This document shows positions 3,068-54,843 of a stretch of 64,000 nucleotides of DNA, one piece after another. Made by a program: the position numbers and the translations under genes. Below the pieces are notes generated by a model, which had not been told where the DNA came from, ran no database searches, and worked only from the letters and a program-made list of their open reading frames with translations. The first letter of the stretch is position 1, and the number at the start of each line of letters is the position of its first letter. Source of the DNA: Comamonas testosteroni (lineage in GTDB: Bacteria > Pseudomonadota > Gammaproteobacteria > Burkholderiales > Burkholderiaceae_C); NCBI RefSeq assembly GCF_014076415.1, contig NZ_CP043568.1, forward strand, positions 3,224,001-3,288,000, read 5' to 3'.

Positions 3068-3562
3068 ATGAAGCTTGAACAGAAGTACCAGGCGCTAATT
3101 GAAGAAGCGCAAAAACGCAAACTTCCCGATGTGGATGGCATCCAGCTGTGTTTTCAAGTGCTGTCTATGGCTGCAAACATCGACCGCGACTGCGCTGCTT
3201 TGCTGGCTCCTCATGGTTTGTCTGAGGGGCGCTTTGTGCTGTTGTTCCTTCTCGATGTGGCGCCTGACGGACTCGCACCCAACGCGCTGGCCGAACGGGC
3301 TGGCGTGACCCGCGCCACGGTGACCGGCCTCTTAGACGGACTGGAGCGCGAGGGTCTGATTGAACGTCACGCCAACGCCGAAGACCGCCGCGCACTTTGC
3401 ATTCGACTGACCTCAAAAGGAAAACAACTTGCCAGTACCGTTATCAATCAGCATGGCCGGTGGATTGCAGGCCTGTTTGGCAACCTGTCTGTAGATGAGC
3501 GAAAGCAGCTGGCAGCGTTGCTGGAGAAAGTACGAGGCCCTGAATCGGACGTTGAATCATGA
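3068..3562 (+). CDS. MarR-family transcriptional regulator
   Basis: The 164-residue protein has the winged-helix core of MarR regulators: GRFVLLFLLD, then LAERAGVTRATVTGLLDGLEREGLI as the recognition helix region, and RHANAEDRRALCIRLTSKG as the wing with the conserved D-R-R motif. MarR proteins are dimers that release DNA when bound to a small ligand. It is first in a three-gene unit: its stop overlaps the next start by ATGA. A palindrome directly upstream is the likely autoregulatory site. The inducer is unknown. Confidence 0.9.
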   Translation: MKLEQKYQALIEEAQKRKLPDVDGIQLCFQVLSMAANIDRDCAALLAPHGLSEGRFVLLFLLDVAPDGLAPNALAERAGVTRATVTGLLDGLEREGLIERHANAEDRRALCIRLTSKGKQLASTVINQHGRWIAGLFGNLSVDERKQLAALLEKVRGPESDVES

Positions 3563-4332
3563 GGGATCAAGTCCGCAAGGGTGCGACGCGCACCGTTGAC
3601 ATTCCTCGGGACGTTCTGCATGCGCTATCGCACGGGGAGTTGCAATGCGCGACGCTGGCTGAGTGCCTAGCAGTCGACCAGGCCGTACTGGCACGAACAC
3701 TCTTTCCGGCACTTACGGCTCGCGCACTGAACACGATCGATGAAGCCTGCCAGCTGGGTGTGCTCAAACGCATGGCCCGTATCGGCGCAGTCTTGCTGGA
3801 GGACTTGGGTACTGGGGGCATCGCACAATGCCGAACGCACCACGCAGATATGGCACGAGGCTGGGCGTGTTTCATGATCGGTGCGCAGCCTAATGTAGAT
3901 CTCGGTGTACGGCTGGCCACAATGCGCCCGCTGGCAGATGATGCCCATTTTGGTGTGCGTGAATGGGCTTGGATGGCGATGCGGCCGCACCTGGTGCAAG
4001 ACCTAGCGACGGCTATCGCTCAGCTGATGCCATGGACACAAGATCCTTCTGACCGTATCCGACGATTCGCGTGCGAGGATTTGCGTCCCCGCGGGGTGTG
4101 GAGCACACATATCTCACAGCTCAAATGCTCGCCCGAGCAAGCGCTGCCTTTGCTCTCAGCTCTGAAGAGCGACCCTTCGGTCTACGTGCAGGACTCGGTC
4201 GCCAATTGGCTCAATGATGCCGCCAAGGACCAGCCAGCCTGGGTACGTGACATCTGTGCCCAATGGCTTCAAAGCTCCCAAGCCGCCACCACACATCGTA
4301 TATGTCAACGCGCACTGCGCAATCTCAAGTGA
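3559..4332 (+). CDS. HEAT-repeat protein of the AlkC/AlkD DNA-alkylation-repair type
   Basis: The 257-residue protein is made of alpha-helical HEAT-like repeats. The segment DPSDRIRRFACEDLRPRGVW (about residues 162-181) matches the conserved R-R-x-A-x-E-x-x-R-P-R motif of AlkC-type DNA alkylation repair proteins (COG4335), glycosylases that remove N-alkylated bases. A later repeat (DPSVYVQDSVANWLND) has the helix pattern V-x-x-S-V-A-N-W-L of the same family. It overlaps the MarR gene by 4 bp and is followed 10 bp later by a small gene. Glycosylase activity is inferred from the family and not shown. Confidence 0.7.
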   Translation: MRDQVRKGATRTVDIPRDVLHALSHGELQCATLAECLAVDQAVLARTLFPALTARALNTIDEACQLGVLKRMARIGAVLLEDLGTGGIAQCRTHHADMARGWACFMIGAQPNVDLGVRLATMRPLADDAHFGVREWAWMAMRPHLVQDLATAIAQLMPWTQDPSDRIRRFACEDLRPRGVWSTHISQLKCSPEQALPLLSALKSDPSVYVQDSVANWLNDAAKDQPAWVRDICAQWLQSSQAATTHRICQRALRNLK

Positions 4333-4342
4333 AAGTGGAACC

Positions 4343-4681
4343 ATGTCTCATTACCTCGTAGAGCTCTACACCCCCAATTCGGCTTGGCTCGCACTGCCTG
4401 CCGACCAAAGGCAACACTTTCTTGGCGGCATCGGACTCGCATTGAATCAACTCTCCAGCCTCGGTGTCGAAGTTCTCTCTCTGGCAGAAACGGACTCCAA
4501 CATTGACCAGGGAACCGCGCATACATTCCTTGGTATTTGGCGCTTTCCTGACCAGGCCGCTCGTGACGCCCTGCTGGCGGGCATCAAGGCCAGCGGCTGG
4601 TACGATTACTTTGACCATGTGAATGCGGCCAGCACTCAAGGGGCTGCGGATATTCACTTGGCTGCTCTAGCCGCCGCGTAG
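4343..4681 (+). CDS. Small soluble protein (DUF6616-like), unknown function
   Basis: The start is placed at the ATG at 4343, because the in-frame upstream extension overlaps the previous gene. The 112-residue product (MSHYLVELYTPNSAWLAL...) has the ferredoxin-like alpha/beta pattern of small dimeric barrel-type proteins, including WRFPDQAARDALLAGIKASGWYDYFDHVN. It lies 10 bp after the HEAT-repeat gene and is the likely last gene of the marR operon. The family name is from memory and tentative. Confidence 0.65.
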   Translation: MSHYLVELYTPNSAWLALPADQRQHFLGGIGLALNQLSSLGVEVLSLAETDSNIDQGTAHTFLGIWRFPDQAARDALLAGIKASGWYDYFDHVNAASTQGAADIHLAALAAA

Positions 4682-4925
4682 CGCAGTCATTCCGATAATG
4701 CCGTTATGCATCTGCAATGCATGCGGCTAGTCATTTTCTAGTGCCTGATAATGCCCACTTAATGGCCGCCCGCCACAGTCGCCACTGCGGGCCGGCCAGC
4801 CTTCGGCATAGCAGATGCAACTCAACATGGATCCCCGACTCCGCACAGAGCCGGACGCAAGATCGAGTACAAAGCATGCGACATCAACGTGGATTCATGA
4901 CACCTGATCCTCATCAACCGCTACA

Positions 4926-6201: not shown

Positions 6202-7311
6202 GTGGAGCTCTACGAAAGCCTTAACAACCTTGCCGCAAAGATCCGACAGCAGGGCCAAAACATCTCAACAGAGGAAGCGACAAAAACGGCATTCGTCATG
6301 CCTTTTATTCAATCCGTATTGGGGTATGACGTTTTCAATCCTTCCGAAGTTGTTCCAGAATTCATCTGCGATGTAGGCACCAAGAAAGGTGAAAAGATCG
6401 ACTATGCCATTTTCAAAGATGGTCAAGTCCAAATGCTGATCGAATGCAAAAAGCTCGGTGAGCCACTGAATGTCAACCATGCAAGCCAGCTTTTCCGCTA
6501 CTTTCACGTAACGACCGCAAGAATCTCTATCCTCACGAATGGACGGGTCTACAAGTTTTTCACAGACCTGGACGCCCCCAACAAAATGGATGAAAAGCCA
6601 TTTTTGGAGCTTGATCTACTGGATATCGATGAGCATGCGGCACCAGAGCTTCGCAATCTCACGCGCTCCGCATTTGACGTTGACTCCATCATCAGTGCAG
6701 CGGGCGAACTGAAATATATCGGTCAGCTCAAACGTGAATTGGCCAATCAGTTCAGCGACCCATGCGAAGAATTTCTTCGATTTTTTACTGCCCGTGTCTA
6801 TGACGGAGCAATCACTGCGCGTGTGCGTGAACAGTTCCAGCCACTGCTACTTAAAGCAGTCACCCAGTTCACCGGCGATTTGGTCAATGATCGATTGAAG
6901 TCAGCTATTACTGGAGTTGCACCACAGACTCTGGTGGCTCAGCCACTTGCTACAGATGATGCTGTGAAGTCGGAGAAATCGACCGACAAGCCACCAGCAT
7001 CACAAGATGAGGAAGCCGCTCGCATCGCAACGACCCCTGAGGAGATGGAAGGGTTCTTCATTGTGAAATCGATTGTGCGAACAAGCGTCGAGCCAGAACG
7101 AATTGGTCACAGGGACACACAGAGCTATTTCGGCATTTTGCTGGATGACAACAACCGCAAGCCCGTTTGTCGCCTCCACTTCAATCGCAGCCAAAAATAC
7201 CTTGGAATTTTGGATGCGGAAAAAAAGGAAGTGCGCCACCCTCTTAGCAAACTGGACGATATCTACAACTTTTCCACGGAGCTTATAGCTGCGACAAAGC
7301 TTGTGGCGTAA
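6202..7311 (+). CDS. HsdR-N-type restriction nuclease-like protein without hsdM/hsdS
   Basis: The GTG start at 6202 is chosen because AAGGAG precedes it by 5 bp. Residues 24-160 form the N-terminal nuclease domain of type I restriction subunits: Asp67 (KIDYAIF) and Glu81-x-Lys83 (IECKK) are the PD-(D/E)xK residues. No helicase motor follows and no methylase or specificity gene is nearby, so this is one of the stand-alone HsdR-N proteins. The C-terminal 100 residues form a separate small domain of unknown role. The gene is AT-richer than its neighbours, suggesting transfer. Cleavage of foreign DNA is inference. Confidence 0.8.
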   Translation: MELYESLNNLAAKIRQQGQNISTEEATKTAFVMPFIQSVLGYDVFNPSEVVPEFICDVGTKKGEKIDYAIFKDGQVQMLIECKKLGEPLNVNHASQLFRYFHVTTARISILTNGRVYKFFTDLDAPNKMDEKPFLELDLLDIDEHAAPELRNLTRSAFDVDSIISAAGELKYIGQLKRELANQFSDPCEEFLRFFTARVYDGAITARVREQFQPLLLKAVTQFTGDLVNDRLKSAITGVAPQTLVAQPLATDDAVKSEKSTDKPPASQDEEAARIATTPEEMEGFFIVKSIVRTSVEPERIGHRDTQSYFGILLDDNNRKPVCRLHFNRSQKYLGILDAEKKEVRHPLSKLDDIYNFSTELIAATKLVA

Positions 7312-9171: not shown

Positions 9172-9329
9172 GGGACTTCCTTGTCATTCGAAGGATGAAG
9201 ACATCGTCAGCATGCTACCCAAGCCTGGCGCCTGCCTTGCGCCCTGTCGCGCCGCCGCCACCGTCATGCGGCAACAAGCACAAGCGGGGGAATGCTTGAA
9301 TATTGACGCCAGGTGTTGCAATGGCTGCC

Positions 9330-9370
9330 CCGGAGTGTGAGTATGGGTAGGCAATCGTTCGGATTGCGTT
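9330..9370 (+). repeat. Leader repeat copy 1, before first universal stress gene
   Basis: A 41-bp leader beginning CCGGAGTGTGAGTATGGGT and ending in a hairpin (GCAATC, 5-nt loop, GATTGC, 9351-9367) is nearly identical to the sequence at 9944-9985. Each copy precedes one universal stress gene, so the duplication included the control region. Its role, promoter or mRNA leader element, is not known. Confidence 0.6.
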
Positions 9371-9399
9371 GCTACCGCTGATGCCCAAGGAGGCTGAAA

Positions 9400-9852
9400 A
9401 TGTTCAAGCACATTCTGATTCCGACAGACGGCTCGAAACTCTCCGAAGCTGCACTGCGTGCAGGCTTGCAGCTGGCCAAGGAGCAAGGCTCCGACGTGAC
9501 GGTGCTTTATGTGATGCCGGACTATTCGGCCCTGATGTATAGCGGCGAGGGGATGGTGGCCTACAACCCCAGCGAGATGCGCCGGGACGCCGAGCTAACG
9601 GCCGACACCGTGCTAAAGACGGTGCAGGACATTGCCGAGGCCGAGGGAGTGGACTGCAAGTTGGAGCGGACGATGAACTTTTCGGTGCACCAGGCCATCA
9701 TCCAACAGGCCAAGGACAGCCACTGCGACCTGATCTGCATGGCATCGCACGGTCGCAAGGGCCTTGCCGGCATTTTGCTGGGCAGCGAAACCCAGCGCGT
9801 GCTGGTGAACAGCGGCATTCCGGTGCTGGTGCACAGGCCTGCGGCCAATTAG
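9400..9852 (+). CDS. Universal stress protein (UspA family)
   Basis: The 150-residue protein has the UspA fold: N-terminal FKHILIPTDGSKLSEAAL, and near the C-terminus MASHGRKGLAGILLGSETQRVLVNSGIPVLVHRP. That last stretch carries the ATP-binding G-x2-G-x9-G(S/T) motif in the form GRKGLAGILLGSE. AAGGAGG precedes the ATG at good spacing. It is the first of two tandem paralogs sharing a similar leader. Such proteins aid survival in stress or low oxygen. The trigger here is unknown. Confidence 0.92.
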   Translation: MFKHILIPTDGSKLSEAALRAGLQLAKEQGSDVTVLYVMPDYSALMYSGEGMVAYNPSEMRRDAELTADTVLKTVQDIAEAEGVDCKLERTMNFSVHQAIIQQAKDSHCDLICMASHGRKGLAGILLGSETQRVLVNSGIPVLVHRPAAN

Positions 9853-9943
9853 GTCAGAGCCGATTTCCACTGGATTTCAGGCCTTTGCTTGCCCATCAAA
9901 AAAACCGCCTGAATACCTACTTCTGGGTGTTGCATTAGCCATC

Positions 9944-9985
9944 CCGGAGTGTGAGTATGGGTTTGGCAATCGTTCGGATTGCGTG
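9944..9985 (+). repeat. Leader repeat copy 2, before second universal stress gene
   Basis: This is the second copy of the leader at 9330-9370, with the same GCAATC/GATTGC hairpin (9966-9982) and one inserted base after GTATGGGT. Confidence 0.6.
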
Positions 9986-10022
9986 GCAATCCCACAGGCG
10001 CTGGCGCGCAAGGAGGCTAAAA

Positions 10023-10478
10023 ATGTTCAAGCACATTCTGATTCCTACGGACGGCTCGAAACTCTCCGAAGCCGCGCTGCGTGCGGGCATGGAGTTTGCC
10101 AAGGAGCAAGACTCCCAGGTGACGGTGCTGTACGTGATGCCAGACTATGCCGCCTTGATGTACAGCGGCGAGGCGATGATGACCTACAACACCAGCGACC
10201 TGAACAAGGACGCCGAGAGAACGGCCGACAAGGTGTTGCAAGAGGTGCAGGACATTGCCAGGGCCGAGGGGGTGTATTGCAGGACGGCACGAGCCATGAA
10301 CGCCTCGGTGCACAAGGCCATCATCCATCAAGCCGAGGAAAGCCACTGCGACCTGATCTGCATGGCATCGCACGGCCGCAAAGGCATTGCCGGCATTCTG
10401 CTGGGCAGCGAAACCCAGCGCGTGCTGGTGAACAGCCACATTCCGGTGCTGGTGCACAGGCCTGTGGTCAAAGAGTAA
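10023..10478 (+). CDS. Universal stress protein (UspA family), tandem paralog
   Basis: The start is set at the ATG at 10023, which has AGGAGG 8 bp upstream and aligns with the start of the first copy. A longer upstream extension would translate the leader repeat. The 151-residue product keeps the same MFKHILIPTDGSKLSEAALRAG start and the GRKGIAGILLGSETQRVLVNS nucleotide-binding end, with most changes in the middle. The pair arose by local tandem duplication of gene and leader. Both may form homo- or heterodimers. Confidence 0.92.
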   Translation: MFKHILIPTDGSKLSEAALRAGMEFAKEQDSQVTVLYVMPDYAALMYSGEAMMTYNTSDLNKDAERTADKVLQEVQDIARAEGVYCRTARAMNASVHKAIIHQAEESHCDLICMASHGRKGIAGILLGSETQRVLVNSHIPVLVHRPVVKE

Positions 10479-15454: not shown

Positions 15455-15682
15455 ATGGACTCTTTTCTCAGCAGCACCCAGCCGCCACCGGTCTTTCTGG
15501 CACCGGATCGCTTTGCCACGATCAAGATTTTTGCGGCCATCTCGGGCTTCACCGAGAAAGCCATTCGCCGAAAGATCGAGAGCGGTGTCTGGATCGAGCG
15601 GCGCGAGTACTTCAGGTCGCCCGATTCGCACATTTCTATCGACCGTGAAGGGGTCCGGAAATGGGTAATGCGCGGGATGTAG
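15455..15682 (+). CDS. Excisionase-like DNA-binding protein
   Basis: The 75-residue protein has the form of phage excisionases. FLAPDRFATIKIFAAISGFTEKAIRRKIESGVWIERREYFRSPDSHISIDREGVRKWV reads as a winged-helix MerR-like DNA-binding fold. CAGGAGG precedes the ATG. Its end overlaps the start of the broken integrase by 22 bp, the usual xis-int arrangement. It probably helped excise the element and is now orphaned. Confidence 0.7.
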   Translation: MDSFLSSTQPPPVFLAPDRFATIKIFAAISGFTEKAIRRKIESGVWIERREYFRSPDSHISIDREGVRKWVMRGM

Positions 15683-16845
15683 AGATTCGCGAGAGCGGCA
15701 TTCGGCTCTCGTTTTCCTTCCGGGGAGAGCGCATCCGCCGCACTCTTCTGGCAGAGGGCAAGACCATTGCACCAGCACCCGCCAACGCCAGCCAAGGCCC
15801 GCCAACGCCCGCCAACGCCCGCCAACATCAAACACGCCATCAGGCTGCTTGCCGAAATCAAGCTCAAGATCCGTGGAAGCAACTTTGTGATGCGCGAGTA
15901 CTTTCCGGAAGGCGGCACGGTGGCTGCCGGCAAGACCGTTGCCCAGCCGCTGGATCACTGGCTGTCCGTGAAGGTGGCAGAGCATTCGACGCTGGCGGGC
16001 TAACTGAGCGCGGTCAAGTTCTGGAAGCCGTTCATTGGCGAAAAGCAGGTCTCCGCCCTGAAGCATCCGGACATTCTTCGCGCCATCAAGACACGACCGG
16101 GTCTGAGCGGCAAGACCGTCAACAACTATGTGTCGGCCCTCAGGTCTGCGATGGACCTGGCCGTGCTCGACAAGCTGCTGACCGAGGACCCGGTCGCGGC
16201 GGTCACCAGCGCCAAGTGGCAACGGGAGCCGCCCGACCCGTTCGACCATGAGGAAGTCGAAAGAATCATTGACTGTGCGCGCGACACTTTGCGCCCACGA
16301 TTGCCAATCTGATCGCATTTCGATTCTTCTCAGGCCTGCGCACCAGCGAGATGGTGGCCCTGCGCTGGCACAGCATCGACTGGAGCAAAAAACAGGTGCT
16401 GATCCATGAGGCGGTCGTCAAGGGTCTGCGCAAGCAGACCAAGACCAACAAGGCCCGCATCGTCAGCCTGAACAGCCGGGCCCTGGATGCGCTGGAAAGG
16501 CAGAAGGAGCAGGCCCCGAGGGCGCAACTCGGCAGCCTGGTCAGCGACGTCATGAGCCAGGCCGCGCCCAAGGATTCTCAGGCGGTCTTGGTCGACCAGA
16601 CACATGGCGAGCCCTGGGCAGACGACAAGCGGTTTCGCAACCCCTTCTGGATGCCGATGCTCAGGGCGCTGGGCATTCGTTACCGCCCGCCCAACAACAT
16701 GCGCCACACCTATGCGACGATGCTGCTCATGGCAGGAGCCACGCCGGCCTATGCAGCCAAGCAGATGGGGCATTCTGTGGAGATGTTTTTGAACGTCTAT
16801 TCCAAGTGGCTGGACGACGGCCAGGGGGATACCGAGCAGGCGTAG
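15661..16845 (+). pseudogene. Tyrosine-recombinase integrase, broken by three lesions
   Basis: The pieces read in order as a phage integrase. They give an arm-binding DUF3596 start (ESGIRLSFSFRGERIRRTLL), then KHAIRLLAEIKLKIRGSNFVMREYFPEGG, a core-binding part, and a catalytic part with Arg in GLRTSEMVALRW, RHTYAT, MGH and the Tyr in LNVYSKW. Three lesions interrupt it. A 10-bp tandem repeat (15781-15830) puts the frame off by exactly one unit. A TAA stands at 16001-16003 where Tyr is expected. One T is missing near 16288-16290. It cannot make a full protein. Confidence 0.85.
15781..15830 (+). repeat. 10-bp tandem repeat, five units, inside the integrase
   Basis: Five consecutive decamers of the form GCCAACGCCC (units 1, 2 and 5 slightly changed) lie in the linker after the arm-binding domain. 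Since 10 is not a multiple of 3, the copy number sets the reading frame, and deleting one unit joins the upstream and downstream frames. Confidence 0.8.
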
Positions 16846-17203: not shown

Positions 17204-18429
17204 TGTGGATTCAACCGATCGATGCAACACATTCGTTAAACATCTCAGCCGGGGTTCTGTACCCCAAGGTCTTCCTGGGCCGCTCGTTTAATTTTCTTGC
17301 AATCGCATCTAATTCATCTTGCGAGTAGCCAGAGATGTCGATGCCCTTGGGTAGATACTGCCTAAGTAGCCCATTGGTGTTCTCGTTCGTTCCGCGCTGC
17401 CATGGGTTTTGTGGATCGCAGAAGTAGACCAGGATGTCGGTAGCCACAGTGAATCGTTTGTGCCCCGCCATTTCCGATCCTCGATCCCAGGTCAAGGAAC
17501 GATAGAGCTCTTGTGGCAAGGTCTGCGCATGCCTGGCCAGCGCTGCCGCCACGGTGTACGAGTCCTTGTCCACTAGCTTGACCAACATTACGTAGCGGGT
17601 GTGCCGCTCTACTAGCGTTGCCACCTGGCTGTAGGCATCGCCAAACAACAGATCGCCCTCCCAATAGCCCGGCACTGCTCGATCCTCTATGCAGGCTGGG
17701 CGCTCGCTCATGGGCACTGCATCGACGATCCGGCCATGGATCGGCGTCTTCTGGGTGTAATGGCGTGAGCGTCGCATTCCTCTGGTACGCCGCAAATGCT
17801 CCAGAAGCTCTTTCTTCAAGGCTCCGCGTGTTTGAACGAAGAGCGTGCGATAGATGGCTTCGTGAGACACCTGCATGTCCTTTGCGCTCGGGTAAGTTCG
17901 TTTGAGCCACCCTGCTATTTGCTCGGGCGACCATTGACTTTGTAATTTACCCGCCACGATCTGCGCCAACGCAGGATTGCAGGCCAACTTGCACGTCTTT
18001 GGGCGGTGCGCTCGCTGCCAGGCTGCCTCATCTGCTTTTGTAGCTCGGTAGCAGGTTTTGCCGCCATTGCGCATGAGTTCTCGACTGATGGTGGATGCTG
18101 CTCGCTTCAAGCGCCTGGCAACGCAGCGGATGGATTCACCGGCAGCCAAGCTGCGCGATATCTCCTCGCGCTCAGCCAAAGACAAGGCCAAACGCGGCCG
18201 ATGCCTTGCTGGTGGCCGGATGCCCCCTGTCGCACTCAGGATGTTGTGAATCGAGGTGTGCGGTCGCTCAAACAGCTTGCCGATCTCGTGCAAGGTATCG
18301 CCAGCTTTCCAGCGATCCCACATCAGGGCCTTCTGAGCTTCGGTGTAGTAAATCCGCGGTCTTTGCTTCATGCCAACACTCCTTGCGCCAGAGGCGATCA
18401 TTGTGTTGCATTGACCAGTTGAATCCACA
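17204..18429 (-). mobile_element. IS30-family insertion sequence
   Basis: The ends are inverted repeats. The left reads TGTGGATTCAACCGATCGAT, and the right complement reads TGTGGATTCAACTGGTCAAT, with matching sequence continuing about 10 bp further (GCAACACA). The flanks are AG on both sides, a 2-bp duplication as seen in IS30 elements. One intact transposase gene fills the element. Confidence 0.88.
17211..18371 (-). CDS. IS30-family transposase
   Basis: The start is the ATG at 18371 after AAGGAG; a longer frame would include the terminal repeat. The 386-residue protein has two N-terminal helix-turn-helix regions (WKAGDTLHEIGKLFERPHTSIHNIL and GESIRCVARRLKRAASTISREL). The DDE domain follows with the first Asp in PGYWEGDLLFG, the second in LTWDRGSEMAGH and the Glu in RGTNENTNGLLRQYLPKG, the classic IS30 signature. 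It looks functional. Confidence 0.94.
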   Translation of the reverse strand: MKQRPRIYYTEAQKALMWDRWKAGDTLHEIGKLFERPHTSIHNILSATGGIRPPARHRPRLALSLAEREEISRSLAAGESIRCVARRLKRAASTISRELMRNGGKTCYRATKADEAAWQRAHRPKTCKLACNPALAQIVAGKLQSQWSPEQIAGWLKRTYPSAKDMQVSHEAIYRTLFVQTRGALKKELLEHLRRTRGMRRSRHYTQKTPIHGRIVDAVPMSERPACIEDRAVPGYWEGDLLFGDAYSQVATLVERHTRYVMLVKLVDKDSYTVAAALARHAQTLPQELYRSLTWDRGSEMAGHKRFTVATDILVYFCDPQNPWQRGTNENTNGLLRQYLPKGIDISGYSQDELDAIARKLNERPRKTLGYRTPAEMFNECVASIG

Positions 18430-18978: not shown

Positions 18979-20427
18979 ATGCGGCTATTCGTCATTTCAG
19001 ACTTGCATCTTGGTGGGCGTCCACATACCGACTCCGGGGCCATAGGATCACAAATTTGCCAAGCTTACATCGAGCTGATAAGTTTCATTGACTGGGTTCG
19101 AAAGCAGGCGAAGGGAAAAGGGTCTGTCGAGCTGGTTATCAATGGAGACATTGTCGACTTTTTGATGGAAGACGATTATGGCGATGCGAACGCAGCATCA
19201 CCCTGGACCTCTGACGAGTCACTTGTCCTTGAAAAACTCAAGCTCATAATTGATCGAACTAGAAATGGTACCGAATATGGCCCCTTCGATGCCATGGCAG
19301 CTCTGCTAGCAGCTGGACAAAATCTCACGTTTCTGCTTGGAAATCACGATGTCGAGTTGTCCCTACCGGCAGTACGTCGCTACCTTGAACAACAATTAGG
19401 TGGAACCGGGCGTTTCAGATTTATCTACGATGGTGAAGCGTATGTGAAGGGCGATCTGCTTATCGAACACGGCAATCGCTATGACAGCTGGAATATCATT
19501 AATCACAGCGCTTTACGCCAAGAACGTTCTATGCTTTCTCGTGGCTTAGGGAAGCGCATGCAACAGCGCACATCGGATGCGTTCACGCCGCCACCAGGGT
19601 CGTTCATGGTGATCAAGGTCATCAATGAGATCAAGCGAAAATTCCGATTTGTCGATCTTCTAAAGCCGGAGACAGAAGCGGTACTCCCTATTTTGCTGGC
19701 ACTACATCCGAACCTCCAGCATGCACTGCAAGCAGCTTTGCGAGCAGGCTATCAATCGGCAAACGAATTCGTTACATCTGCTGAACCATCCAATGCGGGT
19801 CAACTTTCAACACAGAGTCAAGTTGCGATACCTACGCTTGCTACGACTCTGAAAAAGGTAGTTGGTGCAGAAGACGCCTCAAAGTTCTCTGTCCAGGCCA
19901 CTAATGGTGGAGAGCTCGGCGCAGCAGACTCTTTGCAGAAATTGCGAGAGCTCAGCGCAAATATCAAAGCATTCATTGATGGAAAAGCCAGCCTGTTTTC
20001 GGAACATACTGCCGGAGCACGAGATGAACTTCTTCGGATGGGGCTAAATGCTTGGCGAGGAAAGCTGTCTCGTGATGAGCAACGAGAGGTTTCGCCGTAC
20101 CGCGATGCTGCGGAAGAACTAGTAACTGAAGGCAAGTTCAAGTGTGTAGTTTTTGGTCACACTCACTTACCTAAAAGAGAAGTCATTGCCCTAGATGAAA
20201 CTTCCGCGATCTATATAAACACCGGCACTTGGACCGACACAATGCAGATTCCATTGAATTTACTTGAGCCCGGCGCTGCGGCTAGCGCCGACTTCCGTAA
20301 TTTCTTAGGAGACCTTAAGGCGAACCGATTGGACAAATATCTCGAACGCCGTCTGTCTTATGCAGACATCACGCTGGATGATGATGATCACGTCTTGAGT
20401 GCAGATCTTAAACGCTACCTGATATAA
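18979..20427 (+). CDS. Calcineurin-like metallophosphoesterase, defence-operon gene 1
   Basis: The 482-residue protein has all metal-binding motifs of the calcineurin/SbcD/Mre11 fold: SDLHLGG (Asp8, His10), NGD (Asp57), GNHD (121-124), EHGN (near 165) and a late GHTH (393-396). A long insert of about 200 residues, largely helical, separates the last two motifs. It probably hydrolyses phosphodiester bonds in nucleic acid or a nucleotide. It is 5 bp from the protease gene and in one operon with an SMC-like ATPase, so an SbcCD-like nuclease pairing is plausible. That pairing is inference. Confidence 0.85.
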   Translation: MRLFVISDLHLGGRPHTDSGAIGSQICQAYIELISFIDWVRKQAKGKGSVELVINGDIVDFLMEDDYGDANAASPWTSDESLVLEKLKLIIDRTRNGTEYGPFDAMAALLAAGQNLTFLLGNHDVELSLPAVRRYLEQQLGGTGRFRFIYDGEAYVKGDLLIEHGNRYDSWNIINHSALRQERSMLSRGLGKRMQQRTSDAFTPPPGSFMVIKVINEIKRKFRFVDLLKPETEAVLPILLALHPNLQHALQAALRAGYQSANEFVTSAEPSNAGQLSTQSQVAIPTLATTLKKVVGAEDASKFSVQATNGGELGAADSLQKLRELSANIKAFIDGKASLFSEHTAGARDELLRMGLNAWRGKLSRDEQREVSPYRDAAEELVTEGKFKCVVFGHTHLPKREVIALDETSAIYINTGTWTDTMQIPLNLLEPGAAASADFRNFLGDLKANRLDKYLERRLSYADITLDDDDHVLSADLKRYLI

Positions 20428-20432
20428 AAATA

Positions 20433-22172
20433 ATGTTGGCACGTAAAGTCGCCCGCTTGATGGCAGGCACAGAACACCAAGGCTCAGCCTGGCTAATCTG
20501 CGGAGAGTACGCGTTGACAGCACTTCATTGTGTGCAAAGCGACGACGGCTTCGCTCGAACTGACTTGACACTTGTTTTCCATGGCCAGTCGCTTCAAATT
20601 GAGGCAGACATCTTAGAAACTGCAGACGATATTGATGTCGCGCTCCTGAAACTGAAGACGCCGATCACCGACCTCCGCAATGTCATAAGCCTATCACGCA
20701 GTAAAGTTGAGCTAAGTGACGAATTAGGACTACATGGCCATCCCGCAGCAGCGATATCCTCCCCGCAGGGCATTAGCGTATTTTGCACCGTCATCGATCC
20801 GGCTCATCCCTATGTAGGAACTAAAGACACTCTCAAGGTCAACACGATTGCGATGCACTCTGAGAGTACGACTCCAGCCCTGTCAGGTGTTCAACCGACA
20901 AGTGGCTTAAAAGGAGCGTCTGGAGGCGTTATAGCGAGAAAGTTGGGCAACGACTCCGAAAGTGCAGTCGGTCTTCTGATTGAGGATTCACTGAGCGGAA
21001 ATGCTCTTCACGCGGTACCAATTTTCGAGATCGCTAGATGCTTTCCGCAGGTTCAGGCCGCGCTCGAACGCTCCCCTCATGTAGACCGTAGGTCTCCCCG
21101 CATCGTCCTGCGCGCGGGGGAGTCGGGACGAATTCAATGGTCCGGCTCACTCGCTCCTACGGAGATTAGTGAGCTCTGGGACATAGATGCAACGAAACAA
21201 GGCGTCTTACGAATCTTGGTCACGGCAAAGTTGCGCGAACTCGGATCACTAGACGACGCCCTAGTTCGCCTTAGCGCATACGCAAATCTAAAATCGCTTC
21301 GAGTACCGGATCAAGATGCTTGGGCGCGCCGACTGCAGTCGTTAATCGACTCACATCGAGAACCAGATAAATCACTCACATTCGATACCAGCTCCAATGA
21401 GGAACATTGTCCGAGCGCGTGGCAAGATTTTGATAAGGACGAATTATCTAACCTGATTCATCAGGAGCTTGATCGCAAGATGTTAGCTTGGCTTAGCGAC
21501 GAATTATACGGTTGCCTTAAGAATGGTAAAGCTACGGACATTGGCGAAAAAATTGAGGGTAATCTGAGTAGTGCGATGTGGACCCGTTGGGAGAGTTGGG
21601 AAGTAGCGCTCCAAGGCGACGCTGAATTGCTCAGGCACTTCCTAAGTCGAGTATTTGATGTCGATGCAAACGCGCCCGTTGCCAAATCAAATTTCGTAAG
21701 CATCGGCTTCTGCACAAACGTACGCAAACAATTGTTACTCGCCACTCTGTTTGCCTTAGCGCTGGATGCTGCAGGCATTTCTACTACCCCCAGGGCTCGA
21801 GACATCGGAAACCTTGATGTTGCAGAACAATCCGGTCACGCATGTGGAATTTCGAGGCGCAGCCAACAAGATCTTCGGCGATTTGCCACCTCGCTTGATT
21901 GGAAGTCTGACGTAGTCTTCCTTCCATATCTTCAGACTTCCCTACTCCACCTCTACTTGAGATCCGTATCCATGACTCGAACAGAGGGAACAGAGGATCA
22001 TTCACTCACCCAAACACTTCCTATTGCCTTAACTGCTGAGGACGATTTTTTGGACGCACTTGCGCGTGGGGCTAAGGATGTGCACGATTTCTACGAACGA
22101 AAACGCGCTGAAAGAGATTCGCGTTTGTCAGCCCTTGCGTTGCCAAGCAGAACGGAGCCGCTAAATGCTTGA
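20433..22172 (+). CDS. Trypsin-like serine protease with large unknown C-terminal region, gene 2
   Basis: Residues 1-215 form a trypsin-fold protease. The catalytic triad is visible as His32 (TALHCV), Asp68 (DVALLKL) and Ser163 (KGASGGV). The remaining 360 residues include a short module (about 235-290, WSGSLAPTEISELWDIDATKQGVLRIL onwards) and a helical C-terminus with no recognised motif. Trypsin domains fused to variable regions are known as effectors in bacterial conflict systems, including ABC-three-component loci. The last 8 bp overlap the next gene. No signal peptide is seen, so it acts in the cytoplasm. Confidence 0.82.
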   Translation: MLARKVARLMAGTEHQGSAWLICGEYALTALHCVQSDDGFARTDLTLVFHGQSLQIEADILETADDIDVALLKLKTPITDLRNVISLSRSKVELSDELGLHGHPAAAISSPQGISVFCTVIDPAHPYVGTKDTLKVNTIAMHSESTTPALSGVQPTSGLKGASGGVIARKLGNDSESAVGLLIEDSLSGNALHAVPIFEIARCFPQVQAALERSPHVDRRSPRIVLRAGESGRIQWSGSLAPTEISELWDIDATKQGVLRILVTAKLRELGSLDDALVRLSAYANLKSLRVPDQDAWARRLQSLIDSHREPDKSLTFDTSSNEEHCPSAWQDFDKDELSNLIHQELDRKMLAWLSDELYGCLKNGKATDIGEKIEGNLSSAMWTRWESWEVALQGDAELLRHFLSRVFDVDANAPVAKSNFVSIGFCTNVRKQLLLATLFALALDAAGISTTPRARDIGNLDVAEQSGHACGISRRSQQDLRRFATSLDWKSDVVFLPYLQTSLLHLYLRSVSMTRTEGTEDHSLTQTLPIALTAEDDFLDALARGAKDVHDFYERKRAERDSRLSALALPSRTEPLNA

Positions 22173-22728
22173 ATCATTCGATAGTCTCATCATGAATGCT
22201 GCGACGGCAGCTGGCTGCACCAGGGTTTTTCAAGAGGAGAACACTCCGACAATTTGGCTAGATTTCCACGCGGTTTGGACTAGCGCTCTACCTGCCGAGT
22301 GTAATCGCCAACAGGTATTAGATACCGTCGATGCGATGCTAAACAATGTGCTTGAGATGCGCAAATCCTTGAAGGCTACGCCGTCGAGCGACCTATATGT
22401 CATGTTGGCGGCACCATATGGAAGCGCAGACAATTCGGAATGGAATGCATTAGCTGCCGAAATTGAACGCGATGACAGACTAGCCCGAAAGCACGTATGG
22501 CTTCCTGATGACGCTGGCAAAAATTTTGACGCTTTCATTGAAACTACATTCCTCGCACGTCCATGGGCTGTCGATGGCGACGACCAAGCCCGAGCAGACG
22601 CTTTGCAGCTGCTTACAAAACAAGTCTCAATTCCAGCAGGATGGCAAGAGGTTTTGCTAGACGACGATCTACAGGGCGAAGATTTGGTTCACAAATTATT
22701 GAGCATAGAAATGGAACAGGCATCGTGA
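22165..22728 (+). CDS. ABC-three-component system middle component (MC1-like), gene 3
   Basis: The 187-residue protein lies between the protease and the ATPase, overlapping both (8 bp and 4 bp). Its core, SSDLYVMLAAPYGSADNSEWNALAAEIERDDRLARKHVWLPDD followed by FIETTFLARPW, matches what I recall of the ABC-3C middle component 1 family. These small proteins are thought to link the ATPase to the effector. The family call rests on pattern, size and position. No catalytic residues are evident. Confidence 0.7.
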   Translation: MLESFDSLIMNAATAAGCTRVFQEENTPTIWLDFHAVWTSALPAECNRQQVLDTVDAMLNNVLEMRKSLKATPSSDLYVMLAAPYGSADNSEWNALAAEIERDDRLARKHVWLPDDAGKNFDAFIETTFLARPWAVDGDDQARADALQLLTKQVSIPAGWQEVLLDDDLQGEDLVHKLLSIEMEQAS

Positions 22729-25700
22729 GTGACGTCTATCTTGAAAAACTAAAAATTAAAGGCTTTCGCTCGTACAAGAGCGAAACGGACGTGACGTTCT
22801 CAGCCGGCCCCGGGCTTACAGTTATCGTCGGGCCAAATGGCCTCGGAAAGAGCACTTTATTCGACGCCGTAGAGTGGGGACTTACAGGGGAACTGCGCCG
22901 CCTCAACGGAATGGATGCAAAGGCTGCTGAAAAAAAAGCTGCGCTCGGTAAGAAACCTGAAGTACAGTTGTGGTTTAGTGACTCTGCACATGTCTATCGA
23001 AGTCTAACCACGGGCACGATTAACAAGGTCGGAGAAACCAAAATTGAAGATTGGCTCACCGCAGAACAGTGGCGAGGCGTAAGTAGCATTGCAGACTGCT
23101 TGCAACTCACTCACTTCTTGGGGCAGTCATCTCGCCAGATGTTTGTCCATCTCGACGGAAAGCAGCGATGGGGGTTGTTAGAAGGACCTGCGGGGCTGCA
23201 GTCGCTCTGGAAGGTTCAAAGTACGCTAGGTAGAAAACAGACCGACATAGGTTTCGATCGAGTGAGGGAGGGGTTTGCGCGCGAGGAAACCAAGCTTGAA
23301 GAAGAATTGAGCCTCATCGACGACCTCCAGGAGCAGTTACGCTCGAAACGCGAATTGGAACGCGCCGATGAAATCTTGGCGCCTGAAGAGATACTAGCGC
23401 GCGGTCAGCACATAAGCGACGAACTAGCAGCCGAACTTGGAACGACTGCGCTTTCTCAACAAGATTCCGACCTAAGCGGCAATGACGTTGATAGATTCTT
23501 GCAACGCATGCGCATGAGTCTTGAGTTGGCTCAGCAGAATCTCGCGAACCAACGTGCGCAATTAACGCAATGGTCAAGCCTGGCACAGAACTATGCGGAC
23601 GCGATAGCAAAGCAAGCTTCACTACATAAAGAAAAGGACTTGGCAACAAGAGAATTTGAGATTGCGGAAACTAACGCATCGACGGCGGTATTCCAAGCCA
23701 CATCAACTCGCGCTAATCACCAATTGCTTGTTGATGAAAATTCAGCACTGCAAACAGCTCGAGATATCGCGGTCTCGGAAATCGAGCGGATGCGTCAAAT
23801 CTTGGCGACGGACGTAAAACTGGAAGCGGCTAAACGACTTTCGATCGATCTGACAAAGAAACACAGTGAGCAAATACAATTACTTGCAACTAACCGGGCG
23901 CTATTAGAAACAATCGATCTTCAACGCAGCCAGCAAACTGCATTAATCGACCAAAGCACCTCGCTGAAAGCTGGGCTTACACAAGCCGAAAAGCTGCTGA
24001 AAGACGATGCTATCCGACGTGCCGCGCTACTTGAACTTGTTGCGTTCCCTGAATCCCAATCGACCCTAGCAACGTCGATCAATGACGAGCGTCAGGTGCT
24101 AGCGCGACTTGAAGCCGAAGCAAATTCTTTGAAGCTCGAGAAAGATGCAGCATTCGCTGTCAGTAACGCTATTTCAACCGGTGTAGCGCAGATTGCAACA
24201 GCACTCCGCGAGGAGGACTGTATTTGTCCTGTTTGCCAAACAACGTTCATGGTCACTGGCCGTCTAAAGCAACTCGCAGCCCAACAAGCGCACGAAGCAG
24301 ATCAAAGGCTAGTAGGTATCGAGGAGAGGATATCGCAGCAAGCCGACAAAATTCAAACGACTAAGCAGAAGCTCTTTGATCTAAATGCCAACGCCATTCA
24401 ACTGAAGCAGAGACAAGAGGACCTTAATAAACTGGTTCTCGCAACTGACCAATTGGAAAACACGCTGCGTGGCACACCTCTTTTGTCCGATCTAGAAATT
24501 AAAGAGTTTATTCCCACGTTGACCTCAGCGTTGAAACAAAATCAGGATGCGGCTAAAGCGTTGATCGCATCTATCGCTTTGAACCCGGAGGCCAGCACGG
24601 TTCGTGCTGATATTCAACGGCTTAACGATTTACAAATCGAGACGACTTCCGAGCGAGAAAGAACGGCCACAGTTCTAGCTAGTTTGGAGCGAGAGCTCGA
24701 GCAGCTTCGGAATATCGCATCATCAGGGATGACTGCAGAGCAATTACAAGCTACCGTACTTGAACATGATTTCACTTTACTTACGAATTCTGGACGAATC
24801 TTAGAATCCCAGGCAAAACTTGATGCGACCAACCGGAACGAAACGGCATCGAGGATTACCTTGGCCGGCAAGAAAAATCTGCTGGATGAAATCGATGCAA
24901 AAATATCCTCGCAGTTTCAAACCGGAAAAGACTTGACTGAACGCTGGACTAGGCAGGGGTACACAGGCCTTCCGATTCCAGAAAATGTGCAACGCATCGA
25001 TGAATCACATGTGAATAGCGAAATCCGTCTGCGGCGTATTTCGCAAGAGCACAGTACTCTATTGGAAGGACGTCGCCGCTACTTAGCACACGTGGACCTT
25101 CAGCAAATTGAAGCTAGCTTAAAAGCTCAGTGCGAGAAACACGAAGTGCAAGAAATTGACGGTGCGATTTTGAAAATCAACGCCCAGCTGGCCACGCTAA
25201 AGAAACAGCAGGACTCGTTATCGACTGTTCTGCAAAAGCGGACTCACTTGCTAAGCCAATTGAACCAAAAGGCAGCAGATATTCGTAATTCGGTCAGTGA
25301 GCCGCTAAATTCCAACACCGAAAAATTCTGCGCAGCCCTCATGTCGGATCGGAACTCTCCAGTCAACTTGAGTGCGGTTGCCAGTGCGACTACGGCTCAA
25401 GCGCTCCTGAGTTTCCAACCGGACGGGAAAGGCGAAGCCAAAAATCCACTGCTATATATGAGCGAAGGACAACTCGCAGCAACTAGCCTTTGCTTGCTGT
25501 TTGGTGCCTCTGCAACTTATCCGTGGAGCAGATGGAAAGGTCTCTTGATGGATGATCCTCTGCACCATAACGATAGCATTCATGCGGCTGCATTTATCGA
25601 CGTCGTACGCAATCTCATAAGGTCTCAAGGCTATCAAATCATCGTTTCAACGCACGATATGGAGCAGGCAGGCTATTTCCTTCGAAAGTGCCGTAATGCA

Positions 25701-25772
25701 GGCATTAATGCTCGATACCATCACTTATATGGCCGAGCCGAAGATGGTACGGCACTTGTGCAAAGCGCATAG
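22725..25772 (+). CDS. SMC/Rad50-like zinc-hook ABC ATPase, gene 4
   Basis: The start is the GTG at 22725, which overlaps the previous stop (GTGA). An upstream frame extension lies inside gene 3. The 1015-residue protein has Walker A GPNGLGKST (36-44), two long coiled coils, and a zinc hook CPVC at 501-504, exactly at the midpoint as in Rad50/SbcC. The C-terminal half has the signature MSEGQL (Ser913), Walker B LLMDDP (Asp943-Asp944) and H-loop STHD (His977). Such ATPases tether or scan DNA ends. With gene 1 it may form a SbcCD-like pair, and with genes 2 and 3 an ABC-3C defence system. Confidence 0.9.
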   Translation: MSDVYLEKLKIKGFRSYKSETDVTFSAGPGLTVIVGPNGLGKSTLFDAVEWGLTGELRRLNGMDAKAAEKKAALGKKPEVQLWFSDSAHVYRSLTTGTINKVGETKIEDWLTAEQWRGVSSIADCLQLTHFLGQSSRQMFVHLDGKQRWGLLEGPAGLQSLWKVQSTLGRKQTDIGFDRVREGFAREETKLEEELSLIDDLQEQLRSKRELERADEILAPEEILARGQHISDELAAELGTTALSQQDSDLSGNDVDRFLQRMRMSLELAQQNLANQRAQLTQWSSLAQNYADAIAKQASLHKEKDLATREFEIAETNASTAVFQATSTRANHQLLVDENSALQTARDIAVSEIERMRQILATDVKLEAAKRLSIDLTKKHSEQIQLLATNRALLETIDLQRSQQTALIDQSTSLKAGLTQAEKLLKDDAIRRAALLELVAFPESQSTLATSINDERQVLARLEAEANSLKLEKDAAFAVSNAISTGVAQIATALREEDCICPVCQTTFMVTGRLKQLAAQQAHEADQRLVGIEERISQQADKIQTTKQKLFDLNANAIQLKQRQEDLNKLVLATDQLENTLRGTPLLSDLEIKEFIPTLTSALKQNQDAAKALIASIALNPEASTVRADIQRLNDLQIETTSERERTATVLASLERELEQLRNIASSGMTAEQLQATVLEHDFTLLTNSGRILESQAKLDATNRNETASRITLAGKKNLLDEIDAKISSQFQTGKDLTERWTRQGYTGLPIPENVQRIDESHVNSEIRLRRISQEHSTLLEGRRRYLAHVDLQQIEASLKAQCEKHEVQEIDGAILKINAQLATLKKQQDSLSTVLQKRTHLLSQLNQKAADIRNSVSEPLNSNTEKFCAALMSDRNSPVNLSAVASATTAQALLSFQPDGKGEAKNPLLYMSEGQLAATSLCLLFGASATYPWSRWKGLLMDDPLHHNDSIHAAAFIDVVRNLIRSQGYQIIVSTHDMEQAGYFLRKCRNAGINARYHHLYGRAEDGTALVQSA

Positions 25773-26131
25773 CGCCGGTGCAAATCGGTTAAATTGCCGC
25801 TCAAAAACAGCCAATGTGCCAGGTCCACCCCAGCGCACAATCCCTTAACCTTTCAAGGGTGCGCTCGGTTTAGACACGGTGCGGCGGTTACTGATGGATG
25901 GCATCTCTCACTGTCTTTTAATCATCAGCGCGTCCCTGATAGTCCATGGGTGCACAGCGATGGAAGATCTCGACACTTCGCAAGGCTGAACGCGCCTCGA
26001 TGCGTTCATCCCTAAGATGAAAGGGGACGAAATACCAAGCGCCGTTGACCGGCGAATGGTAGTTGGGGTCACGGCCTCCTGCAGTTGGTGGCGACGAATC
26101 GCCCGCCGGGTGGGTGTAAAGCGGCACTAAG
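25773..26131. other. Spacer between the defence operon and the IS481 element
   Basis: No independent gene is supported here. The minus-strand transposase frame of the adjacent IS runs out of the element and through this spacer to 25918, giving about 71 extra codons without family similarity. Confidence 0.5.
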
Positions 26132-27090
26132 ATGTTCAGCCCCACAGTGAACTGGTGCGGATGCAGTCTAAAGCGGCTTGGCTCTTTTTCCCACGCCTCG
26201 CACATCGCACGGAATGGTGTCTTCCACCTGAGCGCTTTCAAGTGCTTGCCGAAGTTGTAGCTTTGAACAAATGCCTGGACATGCTCCCGTAGTTGCTCCA
26301 GGCCCTCGTACTCGTACGCCTTGATCGTGGATTCCTTGATGGTCCGGTTCATGCGCTCGACCATGCCGTTAGTCCAAGGGTGGTACGGCTTGGTATGTCG
26401 TTTCTCGATTCCATTGAACTTGCAGATGCGCTCGAAGATGTGACCGATGCATGTGTCGGTGACGCCGCCTCTGAAGCGTTCTTGCCCTGTGAAGGCCATG
26501 CCGTTGTCCGTCAGAACGGTATGTATGCGGTACGGGAAGACCACGAGCACCTGCCGAAGGAACTGCGCTGCGTTGGCTTTCGTGGCCCTGTCAAAGAACG
26601 CAACATGCGTGAACTTTGTGACGCGGTCTATGGCAACAAACATGTGCTGTCTGCCGCTGGAGATCTTCATTTCGGCACTGTCGATGTGCACGAAGCCCAG
26701 CGTTGTTTCTTCAAACTTTCCGTGCCTTCGCGGCACCTGCGTTGCGGGCTGTCGGCTGATGCCGTGTCGCTGCAGGCAACGATGTAAGGCGCTGCGGCTG
26801 AGCTTGGGTGCCGTCTCCAGGAGCTGCCCCATGAGATCGTCCAGCGACAGATGCCCTTGCTTGCGTAATGCAATTGCCAGGTGTTCTTGCTCTTGAGAAA
26901 GATGCTGGCTTGCTCTGTCCCGAGGACCCATGGGCTCATCGAGAACAGAGGTGCGCGCACGCCACTTGGCCACGGTCTTGGGGTTGAGGCCATAGAGCTT
27001 GGCCAAAGACCGATGGGATCCGGTGGCTAGCTGGAGTTCTGCGCGGATACGCGGCGTCGTGCGAGCGCTGCCATGCAGGCGGATTGCCAT
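25918..27090 (-). CDS. IS481-family transposase, reads out of the element
   Basis: The 390-residue frame starts with an HTH region (HRSLAKLYGLNPKTVAKWRAR) and continues into the rve-type DDE domain. Asp lies in FVHIDSAEM, the second Asp in VLTDNGMAFTG and the Glu in NGMVERMNRTIKE. The element-encoded part ends at VGLNI (26132). The last 71 residues come from flanking DNA because no stop occurs at the junction. The sibling copy gets its stop from the flank. Confidence 0.9.
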   Translation of the reverse strand: MAIRLHGSARTTPRIRAELQLATGSHRSLAKLYGLNPKTVAKWRARTSVLDEPMGPRDRASQHLSQEQEHLAIALRKQGHLSLDDLMGQLLETAPKLSRSALHRCLQRHGISRQPATQVPRRHGKFEETTLGFVHIDSAEMKISSGRQHMFVAIDRVTKFTHVAFFDRATKANAAQFLRQVLVVFPYRIHTVLTDNGMAFTGQERFRGGVTDTCIGHIFERICKFNGIEKRHTKPYHPWTNGMVERMNRTIKESTIKAYEYEGLEQLREHVQAFVQSYNFGKHLKALRWKTPFRAMCEAWEKEPSRFRLHPHQFTVGLNILVPLYTHPAGDSSPPTAGGRDPNYHSPVNGAWYFVPFHLRDERIEARSALRSVEIFHRCAPMDYQGRADD

Positions 27091-27147
27091 AGTGCTTTCT
27101 CCTGTTCCAGGCTAAAGAATGCACCATGACTTCCTGGGACCATACAT
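26132..27147 (-). mobile_element. IS481-family element, copy 1
   Basis: The 1016-bp element begins ATGTTCAGTCCC-like (here ATGTTCAGCCCC) and its other end reads ATGTATGGTCCC on the opposite strand, imperfect inverted repeats that continue to GGTGC. It is almost identical to the copy at 53714 and in the same orientation. The left flank is CTAAG and the right flank CTTAA, so the element is not bordered by its own duplication. Confidence 0.88.
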
Positions 27148-27432
27148 CTTAAGAGTGGCTTATATGGAAGCCTCCCGGATTACAAGCAACCCTTGTGCAT
27201 GAAGAGTCAGGAGGCAGGGCTGCAGTCTTATATCTGGCCTATTGTGCAGGCTAGTACACCTGCTGGCCCTGATGGCATTCGCTGATGAGGCTCCCATCTA
27301 ACACTCGAACTGAGCGCTCTTGGCTCTTATCGGAGTGTCCTCATCTCGGTCCGACCTGTCTGGCCCATCACACATTTCGGATCGCTTGCTCTCCTTCAAA
27401 ACGTCAGATTCGCAATCAATTCTTCGTGCTCT

Positions 27433-54728: not shown

Positions 54729-54843
54729 CTAAGCAACCTTTTCGCCATGAAATGAGCAGCTAACTCGCGAAAAAGCCGGCACTAACCATCACCAAATCTT
54801 GTGAATAAGCGACCGATTCAGAATACCTTAAGGAGAATAACCA

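Follow-up and report, generated by a model that had tools for sequence, protein, structure and literature searches.

The window analysed here is a stretch of 64,000 nucleotides of Comamonas testosteroni (RefSeq assembly GCF_014076415.1, contig NZ_CP043568.1, positions 3,224,001 to 3,288,000), in which four open reading frames (ORFs), all on the + strand at 18979-20427, 20433-22172, 22165-22728 and 22725-25772, form an operon whose successive junctions are a 5-bp gap, an 8-bp overlap and a 4-bp overlap. This tight packing had been pointed out in an earlier note made from the sequence alone, and our coordinates agree with it. We describe a Lamassu-type core in genes 2 to 4 and, upstream of it, a calcineurin-like metallophosphoesterase (MPE), which we propose to be activated through cleavage by the protease encoded next to it. 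The genes and the features of the core are as follows.

18979..20427, + strand: gene 1, calcineurin-like MPE, 482 residues, proposed protease-activated effector
20433..22172, + strand: gene 2, protease-LmuA, 579 residues, trypsin-like domain fused to an ABC-3C CTD2 domain
20433..21020, + strand: trypsin-like domain with the triad His32, Asp68 and Ser163 (HtrA/chymotrypsin fold matches)
21123..22091, + strand: CTD2, predicted docking domain of LmuA (PF20278, 3.9e-39; PADLOC LmuA PDLC03858, 1.5e-41)
22165..22728, + strand: gene 3, LmuC / ABC-3C middle component 1 (PADLOC LmuC PDLC03876, 3.3e-28)
22725..25772, + strand: gene 4, LmuB, SMC/Rad50-like ATPase, 1015 residues, GTG start
22830..22853, + strand: Walker A motif GPNGLGKS, residues 36-43 of gene 4, including Lys42
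24225..24236, + strand: zinc hook CPVC, residues 501-504 of the 1015 of gene 4

The Lamassu core and its phosphoesterase

The components by which Lamassu is recognised, an LmuB ATPase, LmuC, and an LmuA that joins a variable N-terminal effector to a C-terminal docking domain, are all present. The PADLOC LmuA match (1.5e-41) covers residues 208-566, the C-terminal part of gene 2, while gene 3 belongs to MComp1 (PF20289, 7.1e-7), its 29.4 bits exceeding the cut-off of 27.3, and gene 4 matches PADLOC LmuB (PDLC03868, 1.4e-152) over residues 1-1009 as well as Pfam SMC_N (1.3e-16). The mechanical ORF of gene 4 begins at 22563, and its GTG codon at 22725 gives the 1015-residue protein with the mid-protein zinc hook and Lys42 that the earlier note had assigned to a Rad50-like ATPase, with SEG at position 913 and MDD at 942. 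The same note's middle-component and ABC-3C assignments are borne out by the profile searches (MComp1 and CTD2), and its complete protease triad is kept in 39 (H32), 40 (D68) and 39 (S163) of 40 aligned trypsin domains. Because genes 2 to 4 match LmuA, LmuC and LmuB of PADLOC, the core of the operon is Lamassu, and the view that the combination had not been described as an antiviral system does not hold for these genes. They constitute, by these profile matches, a Lamassu (ABC-3C) system in the order LmuA-LmuC-LmuB, with a predicted role in defence. A trypsin peptidase domain is already listed among the LmuA effectors, in a superfamily that includes the ABC-3C and DdmABC systems (PMC10586767).

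Gene 1 matches Metallophos (PF00149, E 1.8e-10), and D8, H10, D57, N122, H164, H394 and H396, which we take to be the canonical metal-ligand positions, are each unchanged in 164 to 167 of the 168 relatives in the alignment, in accordance with the full set of metal motifs noted earlier. It has no match in PADLOC at E up to 1, and searches of PDB sequences with genes 1 and 2 returned nothing useful. Among solved folds LpxH scores best, with Mre11/SbcD behind it, so that the "nuclease-type" label given to this enzyme in the earlier note is not established. Against the NCBIfam equivalog for LpxH (UDP-2,3-diacylglucosamine diphosphatase) gene 1 scores 17.5 bits where the cut-off is 134, and its 482 residues compare with about 240 in LpxH. 

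 In gene 1, 229 residues separate the metal ligands H164 and H394, in a segment that AlphaFold2 predicts to be mostly helical with low-confidence loops (mean confidence score, pLDDT, of 81 for gene 1; weak stretches at residues 261-280 and 311-320, others at 61-70 and 181-210).

Neighbours of the phosphoesterase in other genomes

A search with gene 1 found 2003 proteins at E <= 0.001 among 7995 scored, and 120 of them are listed. Thirty-seven of these were aligned with gene 1, and the alignment led, via two short peptide patterns, to 53 MPE loci in a collection of genome contigs, where a trypsin-like domain was counted as adjacent when it starts at most 240 bases from the end of the MPE on the same strand. 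Such a domain lies downstream of the MPE in 38 of the 53 loci, and a CHAT protease is the next gene in another three (L051, L054, L055). Of 10 further MPE matches, eight come from plasmid records and two from 300 genomes of the order besides the window; CHAT adjoins the MPE in all five of the further loci examined (L070-L074), giving an adjacent protease in 46 of 58 loci examined, with a weak MPE-like match (L003) and five of the eight plasmid records kept outside the counts. One of the CHAT loci, on a Methylobacterium plasmid (L072, 5114-8586 and 12070-14084), also carries, a few kb from its MPE-CHAT pair, another metallophosphoesterase that adjoins a Dam-type methyltransferase.

Lamassu genes, by comparison, are seen in only 3 of the 53 loci: L008 and L015 carry LmuC and LmuB, and L004 is cut by the contig end. 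The neighbourhood conservation that the earlier note had proposed as a check is found in the first two, which are distant loci with an identical four-gene order (gene 4 of L015 lies in two overlapping frames), and since the order recurs there it is more than chance. A family search of 398 genomes with LmuB gave three other loci (L105-L107) with CTD2-type LmuA and no trypsin-like match, and an MPE was present in none of these few loci within the 12.5-13.5 kb fetched for each. The phosphoesterase adjoins a protease in many loci in which no SMC gene was detected, and overall it is the protease, not the SMC-like ATPase, that the MPE accompanies. Of 30 protease-LmuA homologs, the window's own two rows excluded, 14 agree with a listed MPE homolog in the length of the longest contig (compared by eye), which suggests that the two lie on one contig. 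Within the window's genome there are nine Metallophos and four Trypsin_2 matches, by position paired at the operon only, and the trypsin alignment finds the same four matches as Trypsin_2. Across the 398 genomes this alignment matched 38 at 1e-12, the best being the window (1.4e-34) and an Avs1 locus (4.8e-24); the pairing census was taken from the MPE side, and neighbours of trypsin matches were inspected for the window and the Avs1 locus. The Avs1b family matched nine of the 398 genomes at E 1e-6, one of them above the cut-off (L060). Searches of viral contigs with the MPE (23 stretches) and of genome contigs with LmuB alone (59 stretches) gave no confirmed locus.

The remaining 12 of the 53 loci have neither an adjacent trypsin nor CHAT. 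Three of them (L005, L037, L042) offer only 399, 0 and 727 bases of downstream sequence; the others comprise a single tree branch, all Bacteroidota (L009, L021, L025, L032, L053), and four singles (L028, L034, L052, L056). A six-frame search of 11 of the 12 (L037 left out) yielded a single match below E 0.05, to a trypsin-like domain of L042 that lies over 10 kb away from the MPE of that locus. In the Bacteroidota branch, where no protease was found, the linker has 81 to 112 residues and no paired motif, and these MPEs may be ungated or have a different function. The MPE of L034 sits in the tree beside one linked to an nSTAND1-trypsin protein, and its locus has a kinase-AAA protein on the opposite strand.

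What is fused to the adjacent trypsin varies widely, the C-terminal parts from the window and the 38 loci, 39 in all, falling into 16 BLAST clusters. Scanned representatives contain nSTAND1-WD40 (L010), NACHT (L006 and L030; L036 below the cut-off), TIR with TPR-S (L013, L019) and EAD1 (L011), along with weak AAA matches in L029, L038 and L031; the other 14 nSTAND1, three TIR and two EAD1 cluster members were placed by BLAST, whose similarity values may be raised by WD40 or TPR repeats. The scan gave no domain beyond the protease in L007, L027, L035, L041, L043 and L049, and no Pfam domain whatever in L027. The trypsin-EAD1 and trypsin-TIR-TPR-S proteins behind the same MPE family (L011, L013, L019) are possible uncatalogued defence systems.

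The distances between MPEs and those between their proteases are correlated over the window and 37 loci (r 0.82; none of 2000 permutations as high), and the correlation is 0.52 over the 622 pairs whose MPE distance exceeds 0.5, with nearest neighbours in agreement for 18 of 38. On a quick MPE tree of 55 rows with the linker columns removed (11 of 52 forks open), partner labels change 17 times against a shuffled mean of 36.0, and switches between known partners are fewer than 17 because the eight labels include two collective ones ("none" and "trypsin, other"). Protease type (trypsin, CHAT or none) changes six times, the CHAT-linked MPEs form one clade (99*), and the four Lamassu MPEs require three changes, at least one of them forced. 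Rows were dropped as short from the first large alignment (L037, L048, L055) and from later ones (L037, L048), at contig ends from the tree (L005, L042), and from the 120 homologs where shorter than 400 residues (three).

Candidate cleavage sites in the linker

Two conserved islands stand out in the otherwise variable linker of the 168-row alignment, both within the weakly predicted stretches at 261-280 and 311-320.

19486..20142, + strand: gene 1, about residues 170-388, the long segment that separates metal ligands H164 and H394 (from the alignment)
19786..19812, + strand: candidate cut site 1, residues 270-278 PSNAGQLST, P1 = Leu276 (codon 19804-19806); conserved island, pLDDT about 50
19906..19923, + strand: candidate cut site 2, residues 310-315 GGELGA, P1 = Leu313; conserved island, pLDDT about 58 for residues 311-320

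The islands follow the patterns P-xxx-G-x-[LIM]-[SGA]-A (270-278) and G-x-[LMI]-[SGA]-A (311-315), with G-x-[ILMV]-[SGA] common to both, and we call a site intact when [ILMV] is followed by [SGA]. Among the 38 trypsin-linked MPEs (the window and 37 loci), P1 is I, L, V or M in 38 at site 1 and 35 at site 2, most commonly Ile (24 and 15 of 38), and a small residue (S, G or A) follows in 31 and 29, respectively. Among the listed homologs of gene 1 (117 sequences), P1 is Leu or Met in 114 at site 1 and in 112 at site 2. Intact copies of both sites are kept by 23 of the 38 trypsin-linked MPEs, by none of the eight CHAT-linked ones, by 1 of 9 without a protease (L034) and by 79 of the 117 homologs, whose context is unknown. 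Taken singly, site 1 is intact in 31/38, 5/8, 1/9 and 85/117 of these groups, and site 2 in 29/38, 1/8, 2/9 and 108/117. The contrast with the CHAT-linked MPEs thus rests on site 2, since site 1 is intact in five of the eight and four of the eight rows are gapped at site 2.

When the linkers of the trypsin-linked set were shuffled and realigned, at most 19 and 15 of 38 retained the two sites, compared to 30 and 30 observed (40 shuffles), and in the 117 homologs site 1 likewise exceeds the shuffles (85 versus at most 63; 12 shuffles). Counting only the motif, at least two copies of G.[ILMV][SGA] occur in 20 of 38 trypsin-linked sequences, against a shuffled mean of 21% and a largest value of 42% (16/38) in 200 shuffles, and in 73 of 117 homologs, against a mean of 12% and a maximum of 21%; the CHAT-linked (1/8) and protease-less (1/9) sets lie near the shuffled level.

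A proposed proteolytic cascade and its alternatives

We consider it probable, from these sequence comparisons, that this Lamassu (ABC-3C) operon acts against invaders by means of a two-enzyme effector cascade, in which sensing is followed by a protease and then by a cleavage-activated phosphoesterase. LmuB-LmuC would sense invader DNA through its ends or hairpins, as in other Lamassu systems (PMC12904381), and keep LmuA silent until sensing releases or oligomerises it, whereupon the protease would become active and cut the flexible linker of gene 1 at one or both sites, after Leu276 and Leu313. The cut would ungate the phosphoesterase active site, and the freed enzyme may then hydrolyse phosphodiesters broadly, stopping the cell. 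Least certain of all these steps is the substrate, for which DNA has roughly an even chance, nucleotides or other compounds a smaller one, and an LpxH-like lipid or UDP substrate the smallest. The earlier note's device with two parallel outputs fits less well than a serial cascade, because the MPE adjoins a protease in loci without a detected SMC gene and its linker holds two motifs resembling cut sites.

The proposed mechanism has a close precedent. Tuck et al. 2025 describe pairs of a metallo-beta-lactamase (MBL) nuclease and a trypsin in Hachiman (HamM), AVAST (Avs1a/b), Lamassu and DRT systems, where fused effectors are switched on by oligomerisation and cleavage by the trypsin activates the MBL pro-nuclease (PMC12799240). 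As reported there, HamM is cleaved after Ile118 and Ile218, which activates this upstream pro-nuclease, and Ile134 and Ile234 are named in EpiAvs1a, with supporting mutants and, for Ile134, a cleavage product (PMC12799240). The candidate MPE sites resemble the [ILV]-S-A found at these Avs1a positions: in the 120 listed homologs of one Avs1a MBL protein, residue 134 and its followers are I114/V6, S119 and A118 of 120, and residue 235 and its followers I51/L49/V19, S118 and A95 of 120.

Several observations weigh against the proposed cascade. Nine of the 53 MPE loci have room downstream and yet no adjacent protease; one of them, L034, encodes an MPE (3264-4820) with both cut-site motifs and no protease nearby. 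The long segment also occurs in the protease-less Bacteroidota clade and is therefore no proof of gating by itself. The motif is short, 15 of the 38 trypsin-linked MPEs lack one or both sites under the strict rule, and site 1 is intact next to CHAT too, in five of eight, as noted above. In the 117 homologs, site 2 does not exceed the shuffles under strict realignment (44 versus at most 49; 12 shuffles), a test that needs neighbouring columns and in which an insertion splits site 2. The Avs1a columns given above match Ile134 and Ile234 within one residue, by number and not by alignment to EpiAvs1a. Finally, the tree is compatible with a single origin of the Lamassu MPEs.

Three other explanations were weighed. 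Gene 1 might be an Mre11/SbcD-like nuclease subunit of LmuB, with proteolysis as a second, parallel output, which we regard as unlikely; as an SbcD partner of LmuB it was rejected on context, given Lamassu genes in 3 of 53 MPE loci and an MPE in 0 of 3 other Lamassu loci. About equally improbable is a phosphoesterase that serves as an antidote or signal remover, acting on a nucleotide or phospho-group, and that the protease would destroy, not activate: it would give the same gene arrangement, and a calcineurin-family enzyme cleaving cyclic nucleotides has been proposed for related conflict systems (PMC7159879), whereas the strictly conserved MPE active site, the placing of the motifs in two defined linker islands and the proteolytic activation described for the analogous MBL pairs (PMC12799240) speak for activation. 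That each enzyme has a cell target of its own and works without the other accords with both active sites being intact, and we rate it marginally lower still, as adjacency and correlated distances persist across very different systems and the two-site motif tracks the trypsin partner, although in the CHAT contrast this depends on a gapped site 2.

With the cleavage-activated phosphoesterase as the preferred reading, the locus shares with other Lamassu systems LmuC, LmuB and an LmuA with C-terminal docking domain, and differs in the calcineurin-like phosphoesterase gene that precedes protease-LmuA. Like the MBL-trypsin pairs (PMC12799240), it combines a separate upstream metallo-hydrolase with a core defence protein that bears a trypsin-like domain at its N-terminus, carries aliphatic-small motifs in loops of the hydrolase, and is reused across systems including Lamassu; unlike them, its hydrolase has a calcineurin-like fold (PF00149, LpxH-like) rather than that of an MBL, and both candidate sites lie within one long segment. 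The CHAT branch recalls the Canu caspase-nuclease loci (PMC12799240), in that a minority of loci pair the same hydrolase family with a protease of another family, but it has CHAT and MPE in place of a paracaspase-like protein and MBL, and its protease gene lies downstream. Trypsin is coupled to a nuclease among the conflict systems of Kaur et al. 2020, which include NucA-trypsin and DO-GTPase (PMC7159879); calcineurin-family phosphoesterases and trypsin both appear among the conflict-system domains of Kaur et al. 2020 (PMC7159879) and 2021; and the Thiohalocapsa DGR 7 locus has a NACHT sensor that contains a PF00149 phosphodiesterase domain, together with a VMAP-fused trypsin (PMC10907252). 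Unlike these arrangements as described, the present one has a separate MPE gene upstream of the trypsin fusion, with cut-site motifs in the MPE. Tuck et al. suggest further enzyme classes of this kind, and words beginning with phosphoesterase or calcineurin occur nowhere in their main text (PMC12799240). The MPE-protease pairing, its reuse with several sensors and the CHAT branch were not found in the open-licence literature, which leaves subscription papers and preprints mostly outside; the mechanism class is already known, and the enzyme class within it appears new in that literature. The DefenseFinder subtype name "Lamassu-Hydrolase_Protease" had no match in open-licence text, and that subtype may already include an MPE form.

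The setting of the operon agrees with the AT-rich locus beside insertion sequences of the earlier note: its G+C content is 0.496 against 0.56 in the remaining window, and transposase-like ORFs (by eye) lie on both sides, at 17211-18428 and 25918-27090. Two transposase-bearing element copies, 98% identical and in the same orientation, stand about 27.6 kb apart at 26130-27149 and 53712-54730, and with the enclosed genes of dioxygenase, acyl-CoA and tricarboxylate-binding types (named by eye) they perhaps form a composite mobile unit adjoining the defence operon. Upstream of the operon, a seemingly decayed tyrosine-recombinase-like integrase spreads over several frames (15661-16845, by eye), a 369-residue protein (6202-7311) has a weak PADLOC match (2.9e-5) to the N-terminal region of a model for type IIG restriction enzymes, and 9312-9848 and 9926-10471 are adjacent direct duplicates, 84% identical.

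Beyond this operon, the balance of evidence leans slightly towards a second class of protease-gated immune effectors, calcineurin-fold pro-phosphoesterases that would have arisen independently of the MBL pro-nucleases and come to similar aliphatic-small cut sites. They would have moved together with the partner proteases between Lamassu, STAND/NACHT, TIR and EAD1 systems, and would include a CHAT branch with a different cut code. The MPE family looks like a further enzyme class of the kind foreseen by Tuck et al., in an unrelated fold and with two named candidate sites, and an MPE next to a protease would serve as a marker for candidate defence systems in several phyla. If this is true, bacterial immune systems evolved the gating of metallo-hydrolases by proteolysis on more than one occasion.

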